Origin: Duganella sp. 1411
GTDB taxonomy: Bacteria; Pseudomonadota; Gammaproteobacteria; Burkholderiales; Burkholderiaceae_D
NCBI RefSeq assembly: GCF_017833525.1
Contig: NZ_JAFICD010000008.1
Span: 186,001 to 250,000 of the forward strand
Length of the DNA stretch: 64,000 nt
Reading direction: 5' to 3'
A program made the translations under genes and the position numbers. Below, piece after piece: positions 12,444 through 44,474 of this stretch. A model generated the notes under the pieces. The model worked only from the letters and a program-made list of their open reading frames with translations, ran no database searches and was not told where the DNA came from. The number at the start of each line of letters is the position of its first letter. Within the stretch, counting starts at the first letter, position 1.

Positions 12444-12602
12444 CGTCCGTCTTTTTGTTGGCAAGGGCGTTTCACCTGGAAATCATGCTTGAAATTGGCA
12501 CGTAAAAGCCAAAAACCAGCTTGCGCCGGGCGGGAACTCTTCGCTGGCCTCCCCTGTCTATCGAACGGTGACATCCCGTTCATCATCACAAGGAGACGGA
12601 CA

Positions 12603-15524
12603 ATGATAAAAGAAAGATTGCTCGCCCGTTCGGTGCGGATACTCTGCGCCGGCGGCCTGGTATTCGGCACTTATAACGCCAATGCCCAGGAATCTGCTGA
12701 ACCCATGCAGAAAGTGCTGATTACCGGCTCCCGTATCGCCTCCCCCGCCGCTGAATCGCCGTCGCCATTGCAGATATTAAGCTCGGCCGATATAGCGGCC
12801 TCGGGCGCGACAAATCTGCAGGAATTACTTCAAAAGAATCCGACCATGGGCACGCCCACCGTCAGCCGGACCAATTCTAATTTCCTCACATCAAGCGCCG
12901 GCGTCACCACGATTAATTTGCGCAATCTCGGCGATTCGCGCACGCTGGTATTGGTCAACGGGCGCCGCTTTGTCTCCGGCGTGCCCGGCGACAGCGCGGT
13001 CGACCTCAACAGCATTCCCACGGACTTTATCGACCGGGTGGAATTATTAACCGGCGGCGCCTCGGCGACCTATGGCTCGGACGCGGTGGCCGGCGTGGTT
13101 AATATTATTCTGAAGAAAAATTTCAACGGCGTGCTGCTCGACGCGCTGGCGGGAAAAAGCCAGGAAGGCGACGACTATAAGAAGAAAATCGCTTTAACTT
13201 TCGGTATCACCAGCGCCGATGGCGCGAGCAACCTGATGGGGCATTTCGGCTACTCGAAACAGGGCGCGGTGGCCTCGCGCGACCGCGAACGCTCGGCGCT
13301 CGACCAGACCTCGTCGATCCGCCAGGGGCATCCCGAGCTGGCCTTCGTGGCGCGCCGGCCCAACTTTTCCGGCTACGCGCCGCAAGGCCATTTCCTCGGC
13401 GACAGCGAGGATTTCACCTATGATGCGAATAACAACATTATTCCGTGGAATCAAAACGGCGCGCCCGGCAGCGGCGCCGGCGCCACCGGCTTCAACCGCT
13501 CGGACTACCGCCTGATCGCCGTCCCGGTCGAACGCTACCTGTTCGCCACCACCGGCAACTGGGCCTTCAATCCCGACCACGGCGCCTTCTTCGAGGGCAC
13601 CTACGCCTCGTCCCGCGCCGCCAGCAACATCGAGCCGTTCCCGCTGGGATCGGACAATGTCTACAAGCCCGACGGCCGGGTGCCGGCCGCCTCGCTGGTC
13701 AACGGCGCGCTGGTGCGCAATCCGCTGGTGCCGCAATATCTGTACGACCGCATCAGCGACACCGACGGCGACGGCGTGCCGGATTACTTCTTCACCCGCC
13801 GCCTGTCCGAGTTCGGCCCGCGCCACTCCGCCGTCGACCGCGACACCTTCCGCCTGGCCACCGGGCTCAAGGGAACGCTGCGCGGCTGGAACTATGAAAC
13901 CTACCTGACCTACGGCAAAACCAAGGAGGCCCAAAGCTCGACCGGGCAAGTCAACGTCATGAGCCTGCGCAACGCGCTCGAGGCCATCCCCGACGTCGAC
14001 GGCACCCCGGTGTGCCGCGACGTGCGCTCGCGGCAGGAGGGTTGCGTGCCGATCAACCTGTTCGGCTACAACAGCATCACGCCGGACGCGCTCAAGTATG
14101 TGACGGCGCCCGGCTCGCTGTTGACCACCATCACCCAGCGGCTGGTGGGCGGCTCCGTCAGCGGCGAGGTGCCCGGCCTGGCGGCCGGCGCCATCGGCGT
14201 GGCCGCCGGCTTCGAGTGGCGCTCGGAGGAATCGAGCGCCATTCCCGATCCGCTGACGCAGTCCGGACTGAACGCCGGCAACGCCACGCCGCCCACCATG
14301 GGCGAGTTCACGGTGCGCGAGGTGTTCGTCGAAACGCGCGTGCCGCTGCTCAAGGCGCGCCCGTGGGTGCGCGAGTTGAGCGCGCTGGCCACGTTCCGCC
14401 ACGGCGACTATTCGACCGTCGGCGCCACCAACAGCTGGAACGCCGGCCTGGAATGGTCGATCACCCCCGACATCAAGCTGCGCGCGACGCGGGCGCAGTC
14501 GACCCGGGCGCCCAACATCAACGAGCTGTACCAGGCCCCCAGCCAGGACTTCCCCACCGGCCTGGTCGATCCGTGCGAGGGCGTGTCCTCCAGCGGCACC
14601 GGCGCGCTGGCCGTCAATTGCCGCAACGCGCCGGGCGTGGCCGCCAACATGGCCGCCCATGGCGGCGTCTTCACGTTGAACCAGGCGGACCAGCAGGGCA
14701 TCAGCGGCTACAACCGGGGCAATCCCGACCTGGCGGCCGAAACCGGCCGCTCGACGACGGTCGGCCTGATCCTCACGCCGCGCGCGATTCCGCTGCTGAG
14801 CCGGGCCGTCTTCACGCTGGACTACTTCAAGATCAAGATCGCCGACGCCATCGTCTCCACCGACCGCCAGTACGCGCTCGACCAGTGCTACAACCAGAAC
14901 AACCCGCAATTCTGCGCCTTCATCACGCGCCGCCCCGCCGCCGTCGGCAACCTCAGCGCCGGTTCGATCCGCTACAGCGACATCGCCGCCACCAACAGCG
15001 GCGGCTTCGGCACCGAAGGCGTCGACCTGACCGCCTCCTGGAGCGGCCGCGCGGGACCGGGCACGCTGAGCGCGCGCCTGGCCCACACCTGGCTGCGCAA
15101 GCTGTGGCAGCAGGCCACGCCGGACGCCGACAAGAACCACGACGTCGGCGAGGTCACGGCCAACAACGTCAACGCGCCGCGCAACCGGGCCACCTTGAAC
15201 CTGGCCTACAAATGGGGACCGTACGGCGCCAGCTGGACCAGCACCTACACCGGCCCGGTGTCGCTGGACGACCAGTTCCTCAAAAGCCTGAGCATCGCGC
15301 CGGGCACGGTCGGCGTCGGCTCGCGCACCTACAACGATGTCCAGTTCACCTACGACGTGCGCAAGGCGGTCCAGCTGTACCTGGGCGTCGACAACCTGTT
15401 CAACGCCAAGCCGCCGCCCATCATCAGCGGCCTGCCCGGCAACCAGACCGGCACCGAGACCGACACCTCGACCTACGACGCCATCGGCCGCCGTTTCTAC
15501 GCGGGGCTGCGCGTGTCGCTATGA
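12603..15524 (+). CDS. TonB-dependent receptor, first of a tandem pair
   Basis: A 973-residue outer-membrane receptor. A signal peptide ending in NANA is followed by QKVLITGSRI (TonB-box-like segment), the plug with NLRNLGDSRTLVLVNGRRF and GGASATYGSDAVAGVVNII, then the barrel. The ATG at 12603 is chosen because AAGGAGA lies just upstream and the MIKERLLARSVR start matches the other receptors here. The protein is highly similar over its whole length to the next gene, so the two are probably a tandem duplication. Its first 200 or so codons use A/T-ending codons much more often than the rest. The barrel does not close on Phe but on VSL, as in its neighbour. No TonB, ExbBD or regulator is adjacent; the ligand is unknown. 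Confidence 0.95.
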   Translation: MIKERLLARSVRILCAGGLVFGTYNANAQESAEPMQKVLITGSRIASPAAESPSPLQILSSADIAASGATNLQELLQKNPTMGTPTVSRTNSNFLTSSAGVTTINLRNLGDSRTLVLVNGRRFVSGVPGDSAVDLNSIPTDFIDRVELLTGGASATYGSDAVAGVVNIILKKNFNGVLLDALAGKSQEGDDYKKKIALTFGITSADGASNLMGHFGYSKQGAVASRDRERSALDQTSSIRQGHPELAFVARRPNFSGYAPQGHFLGDSEDFTYDANNNIIPWNQNGAPGSGAGATGFNRSDYRLIAVPVERYLFATTGNWAFNPDHGAFFEGTYASSRAASNIEPFPLGSDNVYKPDGRVPAASLVNGALVRNPLVPQYLYDRISDTDGDGVPDYFFTRRLSEFGPRHSAVDRDTFRLATGLKGTLRGWNYETYLTYGKTKEAQSSTGQVNVMSLRNALEAIPDVDGTPVCRDVRSRQEGCVPINLFGYNSITPDALKYVTAPGSLLTTITQRLVGGSVSGEVPGLAAGAIGVAAGFEWRSEESSAIPDPLTQSGLNAGNATPPTMGEFTVREVFVETRVPLLKARPWVRELSALATFRHGDYSTVGATNSWNAGLEWSITPDIKLRATRAQSTRAPNINELYQAPSQDFPTGLVDPCEGVSSSGTGALAVNCRNAPGVAANMAAHGGVFTLNQADQQGISGYNRGNPDLAAETGRSTTVGLILTPRAIPLLSRAVFTLDYFKIKIADAIVSTDRQYALDQCYNQNNPQFCAFITRRPAAVGNLSAGSIRYSDIAATNSGGFGTEGVDLTASWSGRAGPGTLSARLAHTWLRKLWQQATPDADKNHDVGEVTANNVNAPRNRATLNLAYKWGPYGASWTSTYTGPVSLDDQFLKSLSIAPGTVGVGSRTYNDVQFTYDVRKAVQLYLGVDNLFNAKPPPIISGLPGNQTGTETDTSTYDAIGRRFYAGLRVSL

Positions 15525-15561
15525 GTTATGGCCAAAGTCAACCGTGCGGGCACATTTGTGG

Positions 15562-15580
15562 CTGCACCACAACGGTGCAG
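15562..15580 (+). promoter_or_regulatory. Perfect NtrC-type box / hairpin upstream of the second tandem receptor
   Basis: CTGCACC ACAAC GGTGCAG contains TGCACC-N5-GGTGCA (15563-15579), the full NtrC consensus. It lies about 150 bp before the receptor start. No GG-N10-GC sigma-54 promoter was found between the box and the gene, and no T-run follows that would make it a terminator. It could be an NtrC site or a chance hairpin. Confidence 0.45.
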
Positions 15581-15667
15581 GGTGACTATCAATTTGATAT
15601 TGTTGGTTTTTTGATTCTATTGACTTTTTGTGTTTACAGGCCCAATCCCGACTGAGTACAGTGGCAG

Positions 15668-15689
15668 GTCGAAAAAATATTATTTCGAC
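15668..15689. promoter_or_regulatory. 22-bp palindrome, candidate operator of the second tandem receptor
   Basis: GTCGAAA (15668-15674) and TTTCGAC (15683-15689) flank an A/T-rich 8-bp centre, 39 bp upstream of the receptor start. The position fits a repressor or activator site, but no known consensus was recognised. Confidence 0.35.
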
Positions 15690-15727
15690 AATTCGCGCAG
15701 ACCACTCAAATACTCAGGGAGTTGGAA

Positions 15728-18652
<2,925 letters not shown>

Positions 18653-39414: not shown

Positions 39415-40941
39415 TTAGTCGTCCTTCGCGCCGTCGATGCCGAGCTCGGCGATCTTGCGCGTGATGGTGTTGCGGCCGATGCCCAGCCGTACGGCGGCGT
39501 CGTTCTTGCGCCCGTGCGTGTGCTTGAGCGCCGTGCGGATCAGCGCCGATTCGAATTGCCGCCCCAGCACCGCCATCACCTCCTGCTGGCCGCCGCTGAG
39601 CATGGCCGCGGCCTGCGCTTCCAACAGTCCCAGCCAGGCGTCCGGCGATCCCGGCAGCGCGTGCGCGCCGCCCGCCTCCGGCGTCGCCACCGGCACCACC
39701 GTGCCGTGGTGCTGGATCGCGCCGTAGCTCTCGGCCGGGGCCGACAGGCCGGCGCCGGCGCCCGCGCCCGCGCCCGCGCCGCCGCCCTGCTCCTGCGTCA
39801 GCTCCAGCGGCAAGTCCTTCACTTCCACCGTCTGCCCCGGCGCCATGACCGTGATCCAGTTGCACAGGTTTTCCAGCTGGCGCACATTGCCCGGCAGGTC
39901 CAGGCCGCTGAGGAATTGCAAGGTGGCGTCGCTCATGCGCTTGGCTTCCACGCCCAGCTGCTTGGCGCTTTGCACCAGGAAGTGGCGCACCAAAATAGGG
40001 ATGTCCTCGCGCCGCTCCCTCAAACTGGGCAAACGCAGCCGGATGACGTTGAGGCGGTGGTACAAGTCTTCGCGGAACAGGCCTTCGCGCACGCGCTGCT
40101 CCAGATTTTGGTGCGTCGCGGTGATCACCCGCACGTTGGCCTTGAGCGGCTGGTGCCCGCCGACTCGGTAGAAGTGGCCGTCCGACAGCACCCGCAACAG
40201 CCGCGTCTGCAGGTCGAACGGCATGTCGCCGATCTCGTCGAGGAACAAGGTGCCGTTCTCGGCCTGCTCGAAGCGGCCGCGCCGCGTCGTTTGCGCGCCG
40301 GTGAAGGCGCCGCGCTCATGGCCGAACAGTTCCGATTCGAGCAGGTCCTTGGGGATCGCCGCCGTGTTGAGCGCGATGAACGGCTGCTGCGCGCGCGGGC
40401 TGTGCTTGTGCAGCGCGCGCGCCACCAGCTCCTTGCCCGAGCCCGATTCGCCGGTGATCAGCACCGTCACGTTCGATTGCGACAGGCGGCCGATGGCGCG
40501 GAACACTTCCTGCATCGCCGGCGCCTGGCCGAGGATCTCGGGCGTCTCCGACGGCCCCGATTCGACGCTGGTCTCGCGCAGGCTCTCGTCGAGCGCACGG
40601 CGGATCAGCTCGACGGCCTTGTCGATGTCGAACGGCTTGGCCAGGTATTCGAAGGCGCCGCCCTGGAACGCGGCCACGGCCGAGTCCAGGTCCGAGAAGG
40701 CGGTGATGATAATGACCGGCAGCCCGGGGAAGCGCGACTTCACCAGTTGCAGCAGGTCGAGGCCGGAGTCGCCCGGCATGCGGATGTCGGACACCAGCAC
40801 CTGCGGCGTCTCGAACTCCAGCGCGGCGATGGCGTCGCGCGCGTTGGCAAAACTCTTGGTGGCCAGGTTTTCCCGTGCCAGCGCTTTTTCCAGTACCCAG
40901 CGGATCGATTCGTCGTCGTCTACTATCCAGATTGGCTTCAT
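39415..40941 (-). CDS. ntrC: Nitrogen regulation response regulator NtrC
   Basis: NtrC activates sigma-54 promoters when nitrogen is short. The 508-residue protein has a receiver domain with phospho-acceptor Asp52 (VSDIRMPG), an AAA+ domain with Walker A GESGSGK (164-170) and the sigma-54 contact loop GAFTGA (211-216), and a C-terminal Fis-type helix-turn-helix (KNDAAVRLGIGRNTITRKI). The linker before the DNA-binding domain is longer than usual and contains a Gly-Ala repeat encoded by a hexanucleotide tandem repeat near 39761-39780. It follows ntrB by 69 bp. Candidate target boxes are visible upstream of glnA. Confidence 0.97.
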   Translation of the reverse strand: MKPIWIVDDDESIRWVLEKALARENLATKSFANARDAIAALEFETPQVLVSDIRMPGDSGLDLLQLVKSRFPGLPVIIITAFSDLDSAVAAFQGGAFEYLAKPFDIDKAVELIRRALDESLRETSVESGPSETPEILGQAPAMQEVFRAIGRLSQSNVTVLITGESGSGKELVARALHKHSPRAQQPFIALNTAAIPKDLLESELFGHERGAFTGAQTTRRGRFEQAENGTLFLDEIGDMPFDLQTRLLRVLSDGHFYRVGGHQPLKANVRVITATHQNLEQRVREGLFREDLYHRLNVIRLRLPSLRERREDIPILVRHFLVQSAKQLGVEAKRMSDATLQFLSGLDLPGNVRQLENLCNWITVMAPGQTVEVKDLPLELTQEQGGGAGAGAGAGAGLSAPAESYGAIQHHGTVVPVATPEAGGAHALPGSPDAWLGLLEAQAAAMLSGGQQEVMAVLGRQFESALIRTALKHTHGRKNDAAVRLGIGRNTITRKIAELGIDGAKDD

Positions 40942-44267: not shown

Positions 44268-44283
44268 AGCAGTATCCATGCCA
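44268..44283 (-). promoter_or_regulatory. Candidate sigma-54 promoter of glnA
   Basis: On the minus strand TGGCAT-GGATA-CTGCT matches the -24/-12 pattern with the obligatory GG-N10-GC spacing. The predicted start, near 44257, gives a leader of about 34 nt with AGGAG before the ATG. Confidence 0.75.
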
Positions 44284-44389: not shown

Positions 44390-44406
44390 GGCACCATGGT
44401 GGTGCA
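44390..44406. promoter_or_regulatory. NtrC-type box A upstream of glnA
   Basis: GGCACC-ATGGT-GGTGCA matches 11 of 12 consensus positions (TGCACC-N5-GGTGCA). It lies about 140 bp upstream of the predicted glnA start, the normal distance for an NtrC enhancer. Confidence 0.75.
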
Positions 44407-44418
44407 ATATTCTCAAAC

Positions 44419-44435
44419 CGCACCAATTTCGTGCA
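44419..44435. promoter_or_regulatory. NtrC-type box B upstream of glnA
   Basis: CGCACC-AATTT-CGTGCA matches 10 of 12 consensus positions and starts 29 bp beyond box A. Confidence 0.65.
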
Positions 44436-44457
44436 ATTTCCGCTTTCGCCGGAAAAT

Positions 44458-44474
44458 TGCACGGCTTTGGTGCG
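44458..44474. promoter_or_regulatory. NtrC-type box C between glnA and the rhodanese gene
   Basis: TGCACG-GCTTT-GGTGCG matches 10 of 12 consensus positions. It is also only some 30 bp from the -10 box of the divergent rhodanese gene, so it could act on either side. Confidence 0.6.

Follow-up and report, generated by a model that had tools for sequence, protein, structure and literature searches.

The intergenic gap between two tandem genes for TonB-dependent receptors, R1 and R2, holds a dyad that matches the NtrC consensus perfectly, found in a 64,000-nucleotide stretch of Duganella sp. 1411 that was analysed as a whole (the window; Table 1). We put at about even the chance that this dyad is an NtrC-type site of the R2 promoter region, where it would modulate a promoter of the sigma-70 type, probably by repressing it. 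R2 may thus be a receptor that responds to nitrogen supply without the usual sigma-54 promoter.

The 17-bp box has no mismatch among its 12 arm positions and a 5-bp spacer. An earlier note on this DNA had called it a full consensus match, which is correct for these 17 bp; the 19 bp that the note reported are the extended dyad. The box begins 38 bp past the R1 stop codon (15524) and ends 148 bp ahead of the R2 ATG (15728), in a gap that measures 203 bp, as the note had it.

Table 1. Features of the window, with positions counted from its first nucleotide
Feature	Position	Strand	Basis or remark
R1, first TonB-dependent receptor, 973 aa	12603..15524	+	Pfam
Overlapping competing inverted repeat TTGTGG-CTGCA-CCACAA	15556..15572	.	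Sequence; in predicted fold of own-genome 41-nt fragment
Extended dyad CTGCACC-ACAAC-GGTGCAG	15562..15580	.	7-bp arms here; 8-bp arms in G057, G058, G067
Perfect NtrC-consensus box TGCACC-ACAAC-GGTGCA	15563..15579	.	22.0 bits, top-scoring site in window
Small dyad TATCAATTTGATA	15587..15599	.	Sequence, alignment
Conserved T-rich ATTGTTGGTTTTTTG	15599..15613	+	Invariant 4/4; similar sequence upstream of many single-copy relatives
Predicted sigma-70-type R2 promoter TTTACA-N18-TACAGT	15633..15662	+	18-bp spacer and 53-bp box distance in 4/4
Inverted repeat GTCGAAA...TTTCGAC, predicted 5' leader	15668..15689	+	Sequence, alignment
R2, second TonB-dependent receptor, 974 aa, gene downstream of box	15728..18652	+	Pfam
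ntrC	39415..40941	-	NCBIfam equivalog match above cut-off; GAFTGA at residue 211
Three glnA-promoter NtrC boxes, comparison set	44390..44474 (starts 44390, 44419, 44458)	.	Mismatches 1, 2, 2; 17.5, 20.3, 16.3 bits

The window also carries glnA, ntrB and ntrC together with a GlnE-family gene. Both ntrB and ntrC match above cut-off, and the presence of the pair, with GAFTGA in NtrC, identifies a nitrogen regulator of the sigma-54 type. We scored candidate sites with a matrix made from 90 boxes (65 distinct) in 29 glnA promoters and 30 glnK-linked (Gcw/BMFP) loci of the genus, drawn from 30 of 74 genomes per promoter type, with one glnA locus (L184) excluded. Measured by this matrix, whose limit of two mismatches per site favours the consensus, the gap box scores above 88% of the 65 distinct glnA and glnK-linked sites, and its version in one relative (G057; two mismatches) reaches 18.1 bits, above 22% of them. 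It also outscores each of the three glnA boxes in the window, in agreement with the earlier note. The matrix finds no second good NtrC site in the gap; the glnA of the same genome has three. Between that glnA and its boxes lies a clean sigma-54-like promoter, TGGCATGGATACTGCT (window 44268-44283, minus strand).

An exact copy of the 15-bp core of the gap box is present in the glnA promoter of both G031 and G068, and another lies next to the Gcw/BMFP region of G071. We rejected a dispersed repeat, since the 15-mer core occurs just once per genome, in 12 of the 74 genomes. Gcw_chp is presumably linked to glnK-amtB. Another box of this genome (L112), called genic, stands ahead of genes for Gcw_chp and BMFP, and the sigma-54-like TGGCACGCATTCTGCT that accompanies it is conserved in the four close genomes; this box is probably a true nitrogen site.

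A 321-bp query against the 74 genus genomes, which include Duganella, Rugamonas and Pseudoduganella, found the whole gap in three relatives (G057, G058 and G067, at 80-85% identity) besides the genome itself. In a 392-genome DNA sample of the family the gap was present in six, all from the genus of the window, and the box in four of these six; the sample gave no further box-bearing genome beyond the four known, so the box is confined to four genomes as far as seen. The dyad is kept in all four long gaps, perfect in three and with two mismatches in G057, where the outer box positions have changed as a pair (T to C, A to G), and the loop ACAAC is the same in all. When the four gaps are aligned, 146 of 212 columns (69%) are the same throughout. 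Around the box, the 26-nt block TTTGTGGCTGCACCACAACGGTGCAG has 24 of 26 columns invariant, a level met or exceeded by eight of 186 windows of the alignment including the block itself, the other seven falling over the promoter -10 region. The distance from the end of the box to TTTACA is constant in the four genomes despite indels near both ends of the gap. The T-rich ATTGTTGGTTTTTTG that lies between them is possibly an upstream promoter element or a regulator site.

We compared 46 receptor genes in 39 loci, a set without the third copies that G006, G036 and G047 carry, without the fragments of G054 and G052, and without the partial tblastn matches in L062 and L067. The box stands upstream of the four R2 genes (0, 0, 0 and 2 mismatches); the remaining 42 lack any upstream box with fewer than three mismatches, where the upstream starts at the 39 loci are extrapolated from the alignment and some are possibly off. 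Tandem R1-R2 pairs in G006, G036 and G047 have a gap of 143 bp and no box. One extra match with two mismatches lies directly 3' of R2 in G031 (L068), ahead of the next receptor.

The earlier note had proposed a genome scan to show how rare perfect boxes are. The genome (7,633,521 bases in 21 contigs) has just two, and a reversed-pattern control has none; the second sits within a called ORF, and the protein it encodes matches pectate lyase. Allowing one mismatch raises the number of places to 37 (11 for the control), 30 of them called inside genes, and the seven intergenic places include the gap box and a glnA box (L118); the gap box ranks fourth of the 37 by matrix score. With two mismatches allowed, the window has six matches where 4.95 are expected. 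Because the other perfect box lies in an ORF and 30 of the 37 near-perfect places are called genic, rarity alone is weak evidence, and a perfect box by itself is suggestive at most. At the level of sequence, support for the box comes from its conservation and from a genus-wide test of spacing.

Perfect boxes with a spacing of 5 number 61, in 43 of the 74 genus genomes, with 41 called intergenic and 20 inside genes by our own ORF caller, which wrongly placed inside genes the boxes in the glnA promoters of at least L227, L228 and L240; the true intergenic count, given errors of this kind, would therefore exceed 41. The same arms at other spacings are equally common among the matches listed. We dropped the idea that perfect boxes in general are mere chance when locations were compared: five of 40 control places are intergenic against 41 of 61 at spacing 5 (Fisher p about 5e-8, or 1.3e-7 when the three R1-R2 gap places are omitted), the controls being the first among the matches listed with a spacing other than 5 and coming from G001-G007 only. 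This excess points to a protein that requires the spacing, and 5 bp is the NtrC geometry.

A sigma-54-like element with at most two mismatches lies within 150 bp of 16 of the 61 perfect boxes, and of one of the 40 controls. For 15 of these 16 boxes the gene was identified, as glnA, Gcw, ureD or urease beta; the remaining one (L231) gave no Pfam match. Such an element is lacking within 150 bp of 31 of the 41 intergenic boxes. Besides the gap box, the group without sigma-54 includes eight places before atpI, one before gdhA, one before an HPP gene, two before NMT1-like transporter genes and four receptor loci. The atpI boxes stand 131-142 bp upstream in eight genomes (L136, L149, L154, L216, L217, L218, L234 and L242), with spacers that vary in sequence and no sigma-54-like element at two mismatches or fewer; downstream of L217 and L136 Pfam finds the ATP synthase I chain. 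An NtrC-type box occurs upstream of HPP-family membrane genes in two genomes, as CGCACCAATAAGGTGCA here (L101) and as a perfect box in G031 (L144).

The perfect boxes before other TonB-dependent receptors (L143, L226, L146 with L221, and L241, in G030, G032, G033, G017 and G069) have no good sigma-54 element; the ORF caller placed the L226 box within a small ORF. Five separate receptor loci thus appear among 35 facing-gene groups (33 clusters, three loci forming the R2-like one), where about 0.6 are expected if receptors make up 1.6% of genes, a share based on 107 plug domains in the Duganella sp. 1411 genome and an estimated gene total. The enrichment has P about 0.0004, or 0.003 for the four loci other than R2, in a calculation that ignores possibly longer upstream regions of receptor genes. 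We offer, tentatively and with considerable doubt, the suggestion that a fair number of NtrC sites in the genus work without sigma-54, at five receptor loci including R2 and at atpI, gdhA, HPP and NMT1-like genes. If true, sigma-70 promoters would tie outer-membrane uptake to nitrogen status. In any case the comparison provides a catalogue of perfect NtrC boxes that lack a sigma-54 promoter.

The earlier note had found no sigma-54 promoter near the gap box, and this holds for anything conserved. Up to 300 bp outward of the box in the four genomes there is no element with two or fewer mismatches to TGGCACGNNNNTTGCW; the best matches there have three to six. No -24/-12 promoter of the form TGGCAYG-N4-YTGCW was found near the box, so by sequence the gap holds no NtrC/sigma-54 enhancer-promoter unit. 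Two sigma-54-like candidates were rejected. The first, GGGCACATTTGTGGCT (15548-15563, three mismatches), is present in the Duganella sp. 1411 genome alone, its -24 GG being absent from G057, G058 and G067. The second, TGGCGTTGGGCCTGCA (15783-15798, two mismatches to a relaxed pattern), lies within R2 and cannot start a full R2 message. Relaxed sigma-54-like matches across the window are below chance (26, with 43.5 expected). A promoter scan of the region gave two promoter-like sites against 0.2 expected.

From these data we infer that NtrC binds and acts here without sigma-54, and likewise the position of the transcript start, the direction of the effect and any response of R2 to nitrogen. Bound to the dyad, about 98 bp ahead of the predicted start of the transcript, NtrC would modulate TTTACA-N18-TACAGT rather than fire a sigma-54 promoter. 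An NtrC of the GAFTGA type should activate with sigma-54 only, and activation of a sigma-70 promoter is unexpected. Repression, or interference with an upstream activator, would be the likelier sense of the effect, because this NtrC carries GAFTGA and because, in Pseudomonas putida, NtrC is reported to repress gdhA directly (PMC5648810). We found no report of NtrC control of TonB receptors in titles or abstract openings among the matches listed, and the word 'TonB' is absent from the main text of a paper on Caulobacter NtrC (PMC10274813).

R1 and R2 are 74% identical in sequence, and their promoters differ. The region upstream of R1 (window 12495-12561) has a dyad TTGGC-N8-GCCAA at 12495-12512, GGGAACTC at 12532 and GTCTAT at 12556; GGAACTC-N16-GTCTAT is found upstream of all 12 R1-type genes examined, and we take it to resemble an ECF sigma promoter. 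Duplication of the receptor may have split its regulation. If NtrC acts at the gap, the difference between the two promoters means that nitrogen status would influence which of these closely related receptors is made. As to what they import, none of the NCBIfam matches listed for R1 or R2 reaches its cut-off and only generic TonB-receptor matches remain, while their PDB matches cover mainly the plug region and give no ligand. The earlier note's reading of the box as an NtrC-type site is supported by its arms, spacing, matrix rank, a fixed distance in four genomes and a core shared with glnA promoters, but the nitrogen-containing ligand that it suggested for the receptor finds no support, R2 giving just those generic matches.

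Several observations count against an NtrC site. The gap has no conserved sigma-54 element and a lone site, and the 42 other receptor genes examined have no box. The loop ACAAC does not vary between the genomes, though an NtrC spacer would be free to do so. The dyad extends 1-2 bp past the NtrC core in the gap, and such extension is zero in 13 of the 16 sigma-54-class boxes.

Lying where it does past the R1 stop, the dyad might act instead as an RNA hairpin, which the earlier note had already considered, serving the R1 message as a 3'-end or processing structure, with the NtrC match a coincidence; we think this unlikely. The stem would have 7 bp here and 8 bp in the three relatives, and box stem-loops do appear in predicted folds of G057, G058 and G067, but the best fold of the Duganella sp. 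1411 sequence lacks one, the TTGTGG/CCACAA repeat being in competition, and fold z-scores are only -0.84 to -2.76. The T-A pair replaced by C-G in G057 fits a stem, yet it is a single paired change among four sequences and equally expected of a symmetric protein site; an outer C/G pair moreover ranks second in frequency among real NtrC boxes (position 1 of the matrix has T in 65% and C in 29%). Seven of the 61 perfect boxes of the genus extend by three or more pairs, and two of these are terminator-like: L130 and L138 (in G009 and G020) lie in inverted repeats with 12-bp arms and A/T-run flanks, the former adjoining a GDPD-family gene. The gap dyad has no T-run. A search for an intrinsic terminator in 15400-15760 and for an Rfam family in the gap found nothing, and the unchanging distance from the R2 promoter speaks for a site that acts as DNA.

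Some different dimeric protein could bind the extended dyad as DNA and regulate R2. The invariant loop and the extended arms would suit it, as would the 31 of 41 intergenic perfect boxes without a nearby sigma-54-like element, eight of them before atpI; against it, no candidate regulator can be named and the box fits the NtrC matrix very well, so that we rate this explanation as distinctly unlikely. A functionless chance match within a conserved gap, for which the second perfect box in coding sequence and the 20 of 61 genus boxes called genic might speak, is highly improbable in view of the conserved block, the fixed geometry in four genomes and the intergenic excess at spacing 5.

The reading that we prefer, an NtrC-type site modulating a sigma-70-type R2 promoter, can be set beside known NtrC systems. 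The gap box has arms and 5-bp spacing like those of the NtrC enhancers of glnA, glnK-linked and urease genes, with a score within their range. The perfect boxes of those genes have a sigma-54-like element within 150 bp, whereas the gap box has no conserved one, and glnA promoters often carry two or three boxes where the gap has a single one. Herbaspirillum seropedicae belongs to the same family as Duganella. Its ntrC mutant shows higher pgi-promoter activity, according to PMC5648810. The same source describes the gdhA gene of Pseudomonas putida, where NtrC is a repressor, as it would probably be at R2, and reportedly so whatever its phosphorylation state; the target there is the gene of a nitrogen enzyme, whereas in the gap it would be that of receptor R2. 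The NtrC of Caulobacter, according to PMC10274813, activates and represses promoters of the sigma-70 type, and differs from the NtrC of the window in that it is without GAFTGA.
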